Notes under the pieces: model-generated
What the model was told of the DNA's origin: nothing
Seen by the model: the letters and a program-made list of their open reading frames with translations, nothing else
The model's database searches: none
Assembly: GCA_021030905.1 (NCBI GenBank)
Contig: JAGFMI010000025.1
Location: 372,001-436,000 of the forward strand
Origin: Pyrenula massariospora
Taxonomy: Eukaryota > Ascomycota > Eurotiomycetes > Pyrenulales > Pyrenulaceae
Length of the DNA stretch: 64,000 nt
Reading direction: 5' to 3'
Shown: positions 6,939 through 58,387 of the stretch, piece by piece
How the letters are laid out: every line of letters starts with the position of its first letter
How positions within the stretch are numbered: the stretch's first letter is position 1
Program-made: the position numbers and the translations under genes

Positions 6939-8705
6939 TCATGAGTACCTAGAGAGCACACCTTGACATAGCCTAGATGAGTTCATCCATACTTTATGAA
7001 TCCAGAGAAATCAATACCCTAGATTTTTTGTGGTATCTTCATGTGCTTTTGAGCGGCCAAATATTAAGCTATAAAGGATTCGAACAAGGTTTATTTTAAC
7101 GGAGAAATAATGAGTATCCGAGTAGCCAGCCGAGATCGAAGGTCAAAGGGGAAGGCAGAGGGTCGCAGGCTGATCAGTACAGACACTTTAGCACCGCAAA
7201 AGGGAATTTTGCCTGTACGCAACATGCACACCACGCGTCGAGCTAGCCCTATCCGTTACTTATTATTGCGACCCAAGTCCGAACTTCACATCCCTACTGC
7301 GACTCTGGCTAATTCTAGCCATGCCTACGTCAACAATATTATCCAAATCGCCAGTTGATGCCCTATCCATGTGCTATTATTTGGAGTCAACGGAGCTGAA
7401 CCTTGGGCTCGGTATCCAGTCGCAATTCTTCCGGCGCGGGTGGAGTTGTCTGCACATAGGCCACTTCGGTAACTAGCGACCTGCACGACGACCGCTAGAT
7501 CTGCAAATCCAGGACCCGAAATAGCAAACCTAGAATCTTATAGAGCCTAGATTTCGGAACAACCGTCTTTTGACCAAAAAAGATTATGCGGGATGACAAG
7601 GACGCGTCTGCACTCCTCTTGACTGCATCCATCACCACTCGTCTGTTGGAGATCCGAATCCGAAGGTACGTACAACTGGTTCTACTGACCCTTATGAAGT
7701 TATTATTCTATGAAGCATGCACCCTCAATTAAGCGGGTTGGAGATTGGCCTATACATTTGCCCTTCTGGTACTCAAGCCACAGAGGCTATTGCATGCTCC
7801 ACGTTTCAAAGACGGCCCCAAAAGAGCACATCTCGTCGGGAAGAGAGAGGATTTCTACCACTCAAACGCACAGATGCTGGCTGCTAAGCCTATTCCAAGA
7901 CGTGCTTACGGTTTAGCAGCCCGACGGGACGGCGTGGGCTTGTTTAAGCTTGATTATCGATGCGCTTCTCTCTCGATAGGGGAATGATTCGTTCCATAGT
8001 ATACAGGAGAGTGCGGTCCTGCGTTGGTTTTTGGCTTTCGTGCTGGATGGGTCTTGCGGAAAACGCCGGGCTGCCGGTGGGTAGTATGTATGCAGTAGTG
8101 GCAGGCGAGACGGTATGATTTGACCCGTGGCTGCACTGGGAAAGAAATCATGTTACCGGCGCTGGAGGGCATTTCGAGTGTCTCGCTGGATAGCATGGGT
8201 CCCCTCTGCGTTCGTTGCAAACCGGGCTGAGACTTGGCTGACCGAAGTCCTGCAAATTCCCATTATTGTGCGGGATAAGGGCCGGGGATAGGTACTCTTG
8301 ACCCTGGCTGCAAGGCTTCGCATGGTTGCTTTTTGTGTAATACTATTTCTGATTATCAATGATTGCGTGGGCACAAGGCGCGCCTGACGGCAGCATCAAT
8401 CCGGCGGTCTTGGCGCGTCTCCCCCTTCTTCTTATCTCTGTCGCTCTCTGTCTCTGCAGCTGGTCTGACCGCCTGTCCCCCTCCCTTTCCCCTGTCCTCC
8501 CCCCCCGACCCTGACTCCTCGAGCCAAAAGTCGGGGCTGCTTGGCCTTGCCCAAACCTACTCAACCCCGAGCGCCGACATCCACTTTCACTTTACGGCGT
8601 AGTTAGCCTTTCCCCATCCTCCATCGCCCATCACCATCTCTCTCCCACTCTTTCCCGTCTCTATCCCCCCAATCCAACCGGCTTTTCCATCACACGCCAT
8701 CAAAC
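6939..8705. other. Intergenic, long promoter region
   Basis: About 1.8 kb without a supported gene. Short open frames (for example 7110-7358 and 7710-7987) have no family resemblance. From about 8400 to 8700 the plus strand is strongly pyrimidine-rich, with C/T tracts such as those at 8415-8515. This is common directly upstream of fungal start sites and fits a core promoter for the Clr5 gene at 8706. Confidence 0.5.
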
Positions 8706-54560: not shown

Positions 54561-55828
54561 CTACTCCTCCCCCTCGCCCTCCCCCTCGCCCTCCTCCAAT
54601 CCCCTCGCCTCAACCTCCGTCGCCAGCACCCACCGATCCTCCCACCCCACCCCCCTTGCCCAGATCTTGTCCACCCCGTCATCCCCGCCGCTGGCCAGCA
54701 GCCGCCCCGCGTGGTTGAAGGTCACGTTCCAGCACTCGTGGTGCGCGGTGGTGTCGGCCAGGAGCTCCCTGATGGTCTCCTTGAAGGGGCTCGTGACAGC
54801 GTTGGTGTTGGCGTTGATGTTCTGTGCCGGGTTGGGGAAGGCGGCGCTGCTGCTGCTGCCGGCGATGGCGGATGTGAGGGAGCTCTGGGGGGCGCGGGAG
54901 GAAGGGGGTTGATGGTGCGGTGGGGGTTTGGGGTTGGCGTCTGCGGCGGTCTCGAGCTTGTAGATCCGGACGCCGCCGTCGCCGCAGCCGGTGGCGAGGA
55001 GGTCGTAGCCGCGTTCGGAGCCGGGCGCCCAGGATATGGAGCGGATGATGGCGGGGTGGGTGGGGAGAGTGGTTGCGAGGCAGAGGCGGGCCTTGGGGTC
55101 GCTGGAGAAGGCGCCTTGGGTTGTGGAGGCTTCGGGCATCGTGCGGTAGATTTTTACCGTGTCGATGGCTGTGACTGCTAGGGATGTTATTCGCTGTTCG
55201 CTGGTTAAGCCCAAGGTGTAGGGTACGGGGAGAGGGTTTGGATCGAAGGTCACGCAAAAGTTGGTCTCGTCTGAGCGTTGTGGGGTAGGGCTGACGACGG
55301 TCACCTTGTCGACGACGGAAAGCTCCTTGAAGCTATCTGGGTTTGATGGCTCGAGAAGGGTAAGTTCACCGAGCTTGTCGATTACGGCGATGAAGTCGAG
55401 GTGGGATGGGATGACGTGCTTGACAGAGACAGATACGAACGGGACGCCATGGCCGTTGGCGACAGTCGTGATGTTCCGGAACCGGCGGCCAGAGCTTTCG
55501 GCTTGAGTGGGATCTTCCTCCCACAGCTTCAACTTTAGGTCGTTGCCAACTGACACCATGTACTGCCCGTTGTATGGATGGAGCCATTTGACCTGGAAGA
55601 TGGGTTAAAATTACAGCGAGAAGATAAGTCAAGCAGTCTTACATCGAAAAGGTGGGCATCGTGGGCGGTCCAGCTATCAACTTCGTGAAGTGATCTATCG
55701 TCCTGGATCTCGAATACCTTGAGCTTGTGGTCAAACGAGCCCGTCACAAGACGTTTTCCATAGAAGTTGCTGTCAATCGTGGTGATACGATCATCGTGGT
55801 TGGTCTTGATCAAACGGATATTCGCCAT
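54561..55828 (-). CDS. SEH1: Nucleoporin SEH1, WD40 protein
   Basis: Two exons (55828-55643 and 55592-54561; donor GTAAGA, acceptor CTTCCAG) encode 405 residues. WD40 blades are visible as GKRLVTGSFDHKLKVFEIQ, HDAHLFDVKWLHPYNGQYMV then GNDLKLKLWEED, RSISWAPGSERGYDLLATGC then GDGGVRIYKLE, and ECWNVTFNHAGRLLASGGDD. The order and the APGSERGYDLLATGC motif match Seh1, which sits in the Y-shaped Nup84/Nup107 scaffold of the nuclear pore and in the SEA/GATOR complex on vacuoles. Two Ser/Ala/Asn-rich loops and a Glu-rich tail (EEGEGEGEGEE) are species-specific. The frame continues upstream of the ATG without another ATG, and a short 5' exon cannot be excluded. Confidence 0.9.
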
Positions 55829-56098
55829 TCTCACTTTGATGGTGGAAAGCTTGATGCGATCCTGCGTAGGAATGCCTGCAGACTGGCATATCAAGTATTC
55901 TGCATTGCGAGTGACTCCGCAAGCTTGGTGTAAGCTAAAGCCATGGCGTGCGGTTCCTTACAGATCCAGCCTCCCCCACAACCAGAGCCCGAAGAAAAGA
56001 CAATTACACATTTACAGCCGGATCTCATGAGAAAGAATAAGGACATTTAAAGATACGTCCACCACGGAGCCAGCTTCGGCAAGGAGTAACGGTATCAG

Positions 56099-56105
56099 GC
56101 TAGTT
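56099..56105. repeat. Left copy of the element's 7-bp direct repeat
   Basis: GCTAGTT directly abuts the left terminal inverted repeat and recurs at 56599-56605 directly after the right one. It is probably the target-site duplication of the foldback element. Confidence 0.65.
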
Positions 56106-56146
56106 TACGGAAGCCGATAGGTGGCATCCGGCCAAATCAATTTTTG
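56106..56146 (+). repeat. Left terminal inverted repeat
   Basis: 41 bases whose reverse complement occurs at 56558-56598 with one difference (position 19, G versus A). Confidence 0.9.
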
Positions 56147-56172
56147 TGCTAGAAGGTGCGTTATTTTAGAGT

Positions 56173-56272
56173 CACCCCTATAGACACCCCCACAAGCCAC
56201 CCCTATAGGCACCCCCACAAGCTACCCCTATATGCACCCCCACAAGCCACCTCTATAGGCATTTCTATAAGG
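56173..56272 (+). repeat. Left 25-bp array, four units
   Basis: Units start at 56173, 56198, 56223 and 56248. The consensus is CACCCCTATAGGCACCCCCA followed by CAAGC. The first three are nearly identical and the fourth has diverged in its second half. Each contains the palindromic core CCTATAGG or a variant. Confidence 0.85.
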
Positions 56273-56325
56273 ACCGAATAGAGGCAGGATACAGAGACAG
56301 CTTATAGAAACAGCTTATAGAAGCA

Positions 56326-56475
56326 GCTTATAGAGGTGCCTATAGGGGTGGCTTGTGGGGGTGCCTATAGGGATGGCTTGTAGGGGTGTCTATAGAGGTG
56401 GCTTATAAAGGTGCCTATAGGGGTAGCTTGTGGGGATACCTATAAGGGTGGCTTATAGAGATGCCTATAGGGGCG
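56326..56475 (-). repeat. Right 25-bp array, six units, inverted
   Basis: Units start at 56326, 56351, 56376, 56401, 56426 and 56451. Each is the reverse complement of the left-array unit, with scattered differences. Shorter CAGCTTATAGAA units lie just to the left (56299-56325). The two arrays can pair over about 100 bp. Confidence 0.85.
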
Positions 56476-56557
56476 CCTTTATAAACCATCTCTATAAGCT
56501 GCTTTATAATGACGCACCTTATATAGACGCAAAATTTTTCTTGAAATATGATTGGTC

Positions 56558-56598
56558 CAAAAATTGATTTGGCCGGATGTCACCTATCGGCTTCCGTA
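56558..56598 (-). repeat. Right terminal inverted repeat
   Basis: Inverted copy of 56106-56146, ending CGGCTTCCGTA and directly followed by the second GCTAGTT. Confidence 0.9.
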
Positions 56599-56605
56599 GC
56601 TAGTT
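56599..56605. repeat. Right copy of the element's 7-bp direct repeat
   Basis: GCTAGTT, identical to 56099-56105. Confidence 0.65.
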
Positions 56606-56875
56606 GCCGTCGGGAGGAAGCTTCGAAGCGTGGTTCCTAAGTTCAGGTCGGGGGAATTCTGCCGCTCCTCACCGCCGACCACTTGAAATCTTCTGAACCA
56701 TTTTTTGAGATCGGATGGTTGTCTTTTCGCGCGCTTTCAAGATGAGGGTCCATGCTCTTCACAAAAGAGGAGGGTCTGTCAATGTATCATTATGCGAGAG
56801 CTGATATTTGCATCCACCCTTCTTGTGAACCTTTTTGAAATTTGAAGATTCCCTGTCTCGGCTCGAGATCGCACC

Positions 56876-58387
56876 ATGTCCTCAAGCTTGTCGACCACTG
56901 AAGCTCGAACATTACTTGGCATCTCGACTGCGTCTCTCGCTATCATCTTCAATGCAGTGAGAGCAGATGGTGGACCCATCGTTGTATCTATTGCCTTTCT
57001 CGGGCTGGCGTTTTCAGCAACTTTCGCTCTAGTACGATGGCTAGGTCCAGTGTTCATACGAGCCGGCTGGAAAGGCATAGACATGTCAAAGACAAACAAA
57101 GCTGAGAAGTGAGCGCATATTTCACACTATTGACACGGATACTGATGTAATTGAACAGGCCGGAAATGATGGGAGCTGTCTGCGCTGTCGTTTTCCTCCT
57201 CTCTACGATCACTCTGATTCCCTTTATTGTGTACAAAGATATTGTTGCAGCCACTTCAGGAGGTGGAAACCGGGATGTCGTTGTGAAAATAGAACAAGTC
57301 GAAACCGGACGCTTTTTACACCGCTTTCCCCACAGCAAGGCAGGCAAATTCTGGATCCTCTACCCCTACGTTCTATCGCTGACCCGATCTCCAGCTGGCC
57401 TCATATCTCTCGGCTATCCTCTGTCTCGAAAGCATCACACTTCTCGGCATTATCGATGATCTGCTCGACCTCAGGTGGCGACACAAAGTTCTCATACCGG
57501 CGTTTGCAGCCATCCCCATGCTGATAGTCTATTCGGTCGACTTTGGAGTCACGTCTGTCATTGTTCCATCACCGCTACAGAAATATCTCGGCCTTCAAGT
57601 GGAGCTTGGGGGACTCTACTATACCTACATGGCAGCTATAGCCATCTTCTGTCCGAATTCGATCAATATCCTCGCTGGAGTTAATGGCGTGGAAGTATCC
57701 CAGTCATTGGTCATCGCAGGCTTGCTTGTCTTAAATTCTTCGCTCTACGTCTTTGGCCAGCCCGCTGCCCACCCGGCATTGGACTCTCACCTGTTCTCCT
57801 TGGTCCTTCTCTTGCCATTTATCGGGTCCTCTCTGGCGCTCTGGTTTCATAACCGCTATCCAGCAAAAGTATTTGTCGGTGATACATATTGCTATTTCGC
57901 TGGCATGGTGTTTGCCGTCGTCGGCATATTGGGTCATTTCAGTAAGACCTTGCTACTTTTATTTGTCCCACAAATGTTCAATTTTGCATACTCGGCGCCT
58001 CAGTTATTCGGCATTATGCCTTGTCCCCGACATCGGCTTCCTAAATTTAATGCTCGGAGTGGCTTGCTTGAGCCATCTGTCACTCAGTGGGAAAACCCCC
58101 CATCTCGGCTGCAAGCTCTCATTCTCACCATGCTTGAGCGTATGTATCTTATTCGGCTTACGAGGGATGATCACGGACAGATCTCACAATGTTCAAACTT
58201 CACGATCTTGAATCTCTGGCTCGTGTGGTTCGGGCCGTTACGCGAAGACCAGCTCGTGCATCGGATAGTCTTGCTACAGGCATGCTGCGGGGTGGCGGGA
58301 TTGCTTGTACGGCACAAACTGGCGTTGTTTATTTTTCCATCTGATAATCGAGCTTTCACTAGCTTTCAGGGTTCAAGCTCTGTCTAA
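56876..58387 (+). CDS. ALG7: UDP-GlcNAc:dolichyl-phosphate GlcNAc-1-phosphate transferase
   Basis: Three exons (56876-57108, 57159-57339, 57395-58387) encode 468 residues with about ten membrane spans. Diagnostic motifs are KPEMMGAVC (near 78), GIIDDLLDLRWRHK (DD about 159-160), NSINILAGVNGVE (227-239), GDTYCYFAGM (300-309) and PCPRHRLPKFN. The enzyme starts the N-glycan precursor on the cytosolic face of the ER by adding GlcNAc-1-phosphate to dolichyl phosphate, and is the tunicamycin target. The second intron has a GC donor (AAG then GCAGGC), a CTGAC branch site and acceptor CTCCAG. The junction HSKLASYLSAILCL is required by the family. The C-terminus is a little longer and more polar than usual. 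Confidence 0.93.

Follow-up and report, generated by a model that had tools for sequence, protein, structure and literature searches.

A foldback MITE of Pyrenula massariospora as a candidate member of the IS3EU superfamily

The IS3EU transposons of rust fungi have TIRs of more than 30 bp, ends of the form TAYGG..CCRTA and target-site duplications (TSDs) of 6 bp (PMC12730594), and complete IS3EU families are described as always having TA..TA termini, with TSDs that are usually 6 bp long (PMC10045372). The authors of the work on Styx, an element of Zymoseptoria, link it to IS3EU; it combines 36-bp TIRs and 6-bp TSDs with solo ends and two types of end (PMC10853768), and IS3EU has also been annotated in an ascomycete, Colletotrichum lupini (PMC11645255). 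The excerpts considered here from the literature on IS3EU, MITEs and fungi name Styx as IS3EU and name no IS3EU MITE.

We compare with these systems a 493-bp element at 56106-56598 of a 64-kb window, by which we mean the whole stretch of DNA that was analysed (positions 372001-436000 of contig C17, in a genome of 37.8 Mb and 33 contigs). The element is a transposon insertion, a MITE: it has TIRs, a TSD and several dispersed copies, and is without a transposase gene. Its outermost bases are TACGG..CCGTA and its TIRs are 41 bp long, as expected of IS3EU, and ends of the TAYGG..CCRTA form suggest an IS3EU transposase. IS3EU, a known group on which little work has been done, is the best match to the element, which would work like an IS3EU MITE and, to judge from its sequence, probably belongs there. 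With a probability of roughly 60%, we understand it as a non-autonomous cut-and-paste MITE moved by an IS3EU-superfamily DDE transposase.

Structure and surroundings of the element

An earlier note on this DNA had described a foldback with 41-bp inverted ends, differing at one base and bracketed by GCTAGTT, and its coordinates proved exact (Table 1): the two arms, of 41 nt each, are complementary at 40 of 41 positions (98%), with one difference, and GCTAGTT lies directly outside both. Between the arms there are two oppositely oriented arrays of 12-13/25-bp repeats, and the whole element is predicted to form one long DNA hairpin with a folding energy of -163 kcal/mol, where 100 dinucleotide shuffles average -64.2 (sd 4.7; z -20.9). 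It contains TIRs and short repeat arrays, and its 493 bp are free of any overlap with ORFs of at least 150 aa, in agreement with the statement of the note that it has no coding capacity; in positions 55600-57100 all Rfam families remained below the gathering score. As the flanking frames, a WD40-repeat open frame at 54561-55559 and a PF00953 (glycosyl transferase family 4) open frame at 57518-58387, are on the minus and plus strands, respectively, the element apparently sits between two divergent genes.

Table 1. Features of the element and of its flanks, in positions of the window
Feature	Position	Strand	Remark
Left TSD, GCTAGTT	56099..56105	.	7/7 against right flank
Left TIR, starts TACGG	56106..56146	+	
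Left subterminal block, CTAGAAGGTGCGT (family version about GCYGAAGGTGCGT)	56149..56161	+	block in 16/27 family ends, at most 4 mismatches
Left array, 3.6 copies of a 25-bp unit that is itself two 12-13-bp units	56173..56261	+	
Central spacer / hairpin loop region	56262..56325	.	includes part of a short 13-bp array, 56293-56334
Right array, left-array unit inverted, 5.9 copies	56326..56473	-	mostly inside the stretch that C9 and C6 lack
Right subterminal block, ATATAAGGTGCGT on the minus strand	56512..56524	-	
Right TIR, ends CCGTA	56558..56598	-	
Right TSD, GCTAGTT	56599..56605	.	

A family of ends in the genome

At full length the element matches only itself, while parts of it, mainly the ends, recur in the genome, a query with the whole element giving partial matches at C9, C2, C6, C29, C22 and C10 (loci are called here by their contigs). 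The core of the end, 19 bases with up to three mismatches allowed, has 30 matches in the genome, against 7 for a control in which the pattern was reversed. An end matrix retained 23 of the 30; the other seven scored below 12 and were dropped (C2:370100, C30:317899, C1:638287, C11:2870403, C22:2856342, C23:5908 and C33:988749). Together with the partner ends that the matrix found, the retained matches make up 27 ends at 17 loci, ten with both ends and seven with one; weak ends among them are C20R (29.2), C27bL (26.0), C27cR (25.7), C16R (17.9), C1bL (17.2) and C27bR (16.1). The training set of the matrix was 17 ends of this same family, the two ends of the window among them, so that the scores of those ends are inflated. 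In the 64-kb window only the two ends of the element exceed 12 (65.3 and 61.8, inflated as members of the training set), and 20 shuffled windows gave no score higher than 10.7. With 197 bases of the C18 end as query, the self-match was the only one up to E 10, and C10 too was missed; DNA searches therefore miss diverged copies, and the family counts are lower bounds. The earlier note had called for a search of the source genome with the 41-bp end, and the end family at 17 loci, the window included, disposes of the objection that there might be no other copy.

The family is small and old. Position 1 of the end is T in 22 of 27 cases and position 2 is A in as many; TAYGG is exact in 14/27, its commonest form being TACGG (11/27), and positions 13-15 (TAG) are each identical in 26 of the 27. 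The subterminal block, about GCYGAAGGTGCGT, starts 42-76 bases from the terminus in 16/27 ends. Two main types of end could be told apart by eye from what follows the core, CATCCGG and CATGCTG, with C2R, C20R, C1bL and C16R fitting neither. The exact 19-base core occurred nowhere in viral contigs and nowhere in the running text of the papers searched. The family copy of C13 was seen to harbour, nested at about 2102-2206 of C13:276600-283600, a hairpin element of ~100 bp (GAGGCTGGGAGACAGAA...), and this stretch has matches at 33 or more further sites of the genome (40 of 54 candidates scored); this is a separate MITE of higher copy number.

Comparison of the copies bears on the origin of the foldback. 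When aligned with the C9 (279 bp) and C6 (326 bp) copies, the window copy shares the outer ends, in the same orientation, whereas it has in its middle roughly 160-190 extra bases that hold most of the inverse array. An 11-base repeat core, counted with at most two mismatches, occurs in both directions in the window copy (8 forward, 10 reverse) and is forward only in C9 (4 times) and in C6 (8 times), with no reverse match in either. Because the C9 and C6 copies carry the repeat of the array in one orientation only, the foldback looks secondary, its hairpin arms having presumably arisen by inverted duplication of the internal 12-13-bp repeat array. As to age, the arms of the window copy, compared without gaps over their first 35 bases, agree at 34/35, against 18-31 matches in the nine remaining pairs (the next best, C13, having 31/35). 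With the highest arm agreement among the ten pairs, the window copy looks the youngest of the paired copies, and its TSD is intact; the proposal of a recent insertion thus holds only relative to the other pairs.

Target-site duplications and the boundary of the element

Left and right flanks were compared at the ten paired loci, against 90 mismatched left-right pairings. With the boundary placed at TA..TA, five of the ten pairs beat all 90: the window (GCTAGTT, 7/7 at 7 bp, other lengths being poor at 0/5, 1/6, 2/8, 0/9, 2/10, 3/11 and 3/12), C9 (GGCATAT, 7/7), C16 (GAAGCT, 6/6), C29 (CCGCTG/CCACTG, 5/6) and C10 (ATATTATC/GTATTATC, 7/8). The C13 and C22 pairs reach 4/6 at 6 bp, which is equalled by 6/90 mismatched pairings, or 8/90 with one more length allowed, and at C6, C27b and C27c the comparison of flanks gave no TSD. 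The TSD signal summed over the ten pairs was reached by none of 7,419 derangements. Moving the boundary one base in gives 9/9 for C9, 7/8 for C16 and 8/10 for C10, and the window drops to 7/9; the pairs unmatched by any mismatched pairing number five with TA..TA, three with the boundary one base in and two with it two bases in. Since TA..TA is the published rule and has the most supported pairs, we favour this boundary, and hence TSDs of 6 to 8 bp. The 7-bp duplication given in the earlier note is accordingly right for the window and C9 copies, and does not extend to the family, where 6 and 8 bp are also found.

All three strong cases with 7 or 8 bp (the window on C17, C9 and C10) have ends of the CCGG type, and both strong cases with 6 bp (C16 and C29) have the CTG type. 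We may have to do with a single family of the IS3EU type whose target cut was staggered differently according to the end, CATCCGG or a near form leading to 7-8 bp and CATGCTG to 6 bp, a proposal that we regard as doubtful. The split concerns five pairs, for C16 only the left end gives the type, the boundary is ambiguous, and there is a counter-case in the weak C22 pair, which is of the CCGG type with 4/6 at 6 bp; with only five cases, the association of TSD length with end type is a lead only. If it were true, one could ask which change in the transposase alters the stagger. The mixture of 6-8-bp TSDs is a warning against assigning a superfamily by TSD length alone.

Candidate sources, rival explanations and described systems

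The likeness to IS3EU is judged from published descriptions of termini, TIR and TSD. Termini and TIR length match, and TSD length does so in part, with 6 bp at C16 and C29, 7 at the window and C9, and 8 at C10; against IS3EU stand the TSD of the window, 7 bp and not 6, and five of the ten pairs, in which the TSD is weak or missing. A further point against IS3EU is that searches of the whole genome with the rve, rva_4 and alpha-kinase profiles gave no match, the rva_4 profile being the one that we take to cover IS3EU transposases. These searches were blunt, as rve missed even the decayed Ty3/Gypsy element of C10, and the two others were silent in the controls (rva_4 above cut-off in 0/14, alpha-kinase matching 0/14). 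Matches to the hAT dimerisation domain were seen at C1:302116, C22:1266630, C5:1179022 and C11:3291052, the last of these weak (E 0.007) and located in a stop-free frame of 415 codons.

Family ends that could delimit a larger, coding relative were inspected at three loci. At C10:99748-117386 they lie 17.6 kb apart, with the 7/8 flanking repeat. The interior has a G+C content of 7-28% in 500-base windows, an AT-richness consistent with RIP, and contains no open frame of 100 codons. In the region 99500-118000 a stretch present in duplicate breaks up this large, extremely AT-rich copy, and one of the two duplicates is Ty3/Gypsy-like. The outer parts had no Pfam match; a Ty3/Gypsy-type element occupies the middle, whose minus-strand frames gave nothing. 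C10 is likely a source element, now dead. The C16 pair, with ends 5.56 kb apart (2509-8070 of C16:509900-519899) and a 6/6 TSD, was considered as an autonomous element and rejected as a source of transposase: it encloses an aspartic-protease gene in otherwise mostly single-copy DNA, a small hairpin being the exception, and apart from the aspartic protease no Pfam family came above cut-off among the seven open frames tested. It may be an element that carries a gene, or two insertions that became joined. A hairpin with 29-nt arms, at 7135-7212 of the same C16 stretch, has relatives at C9:147908 and C30:261016 and is probably another small MITE. The C18 end (position 104 of C18:250200-260199), with an inner flank that looks by eye like the one in C10, lies ~195 bp from the stop codon of an inward open frame of 502 codons. 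That frame had no Pfam match and the next one matched PigL_N, these being the frames scanned; no partner end scoring above 12 was present within 9.9 kb, and the C18 end, rejected as part of an autonomous element, was taken as a solo end. The transposase-bearing element with the same ends that the earlier note had proposed to look for was thus found neither by the genome profile searches nor at the C10, C16 and C18 loci.

Other explanations have to be weighed against this background. The element might belong, as a MITE, to some superfamily, already described or new, that is neither IS3EU nor hAT, that arrived at TA..TA ends by convergence and that makes TSDs of 6-8 bp; no transposase is tied to the ends of the family, and TSD length varies within it, both of which would suit this explanation, but the published IS3EU group agrees with the five-base rule at the termini, with the length of the TIR and with the relatives that have 6 bp, and we hold this alternative to be unlikely. 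Rather improbable is a MITE of the hAT lineage with 7-bp TSDs, akin to the hAT7 of rust fungi, where TSDs of that length are described (PMC12730594). The genome has its four hAT dimerisation-domain matches, yet 0/30 end-pattern matches (at most three mismatches in 19) lie within 300 kb of them, in what is a test of distance only, and relatives within the family fit TSDs of 6 and 8 bp.

Foldback elements of the Mutator (MULE) or P/Galileo type come to mind, as Galileo, of the P superfamily, combines 7-bp TSDs with inverted arms that are long and repetitive inside (PMC3573991), and as the C9 flanks agree at 9/9 when the ends are set one base in. Such an origin is nevertheless very improbable: no match to the PF10551 transposase domain was present in the genome (the profile matched 3/14 controls), and the inverted arms are missing from the sister copies C9 and C6. 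With TA..TA ends, moreover, no supported pair has a TSD of 9-11 bp, the length that the earlier note gives for Mutator, the window having 7 bp, and with the boundary one base in, lengths of 9 bp or more exceed every mismatched pairing only at C9 (9/9) and C10 (8/10). Finally, an inverted duplication that arose locally and is flanked by repeats by chance, hence no transposon at all, would agree with the full-length element being single-copy; it is already contradicted by ends at 16 other loci, four of these with TSDs, and its probability is next to nil. The same further ends, with TSDs demonstrable at 5/10 paired loci, bear out the transposon insertion claimed at the outset.

We can therefore return to the preferred reading, that of a non-autonomous MITE moved by an IS3EU transposase. 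A larger relative with the same ends would encode the DDE transposase, which would have bound the 41-bp ends and cut outside TA..TA; the cut ends would have been joined across a staggered target cut, and repair would have left GCTAGTT on both sides. The source elements would by now be gone or RIP-mutated, C10 probably so, and the element would as a consequence no longer move by itself. This scenario offers an answer to the puzzle raised in the earlier note, namely which transposase was at work and why the TSD has a non-standard length. The element is ordinary in kind, and its use is as a candidate IS3EU MITE, which would add a candidate family of this sort in a genome whose gene content and RIP-like C10 copy suggest a filamentous ascomycete and where the coding partner was not found.

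How it stands among named systems can now be summarized. Galileo/Foldback of Drosophila has, as here, long, internally repetitive inverted arms and a 7-bp TSD; it is an animal element of the P superfamily (PMC3573991), whereas the arms look secondary here and the TSDs of the family are of 6-8 bp. The hAT7 of rust fungi (PMC12730594) shares a 7-bp TSD, a likeness of TSD length alone, and differs in that the hAT matches of this genome are not near the family ends. From fungal IS3EU (Pucciniales and Tuber; PMC12730594) the element differs in being non-coding, in the 7-bp TSD of the window and C9 copies and in that no transposase or alpha-kinase was found; it is like the rust families in its TAYGG..CCRTA ends and its TIR of more than 30 bp, and the 6-bp TSD of that group fits two relatives here, C16 and C29. 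Insertions of Styx (PMC10853768), compared by description, are of about 7.9 kb, coding and active, unlike the element studied here; the two are alike in a long TIR (36 bp in Styx, about 40 here), in solo TIRs and in TIR subtypes that differ at an internal motif.
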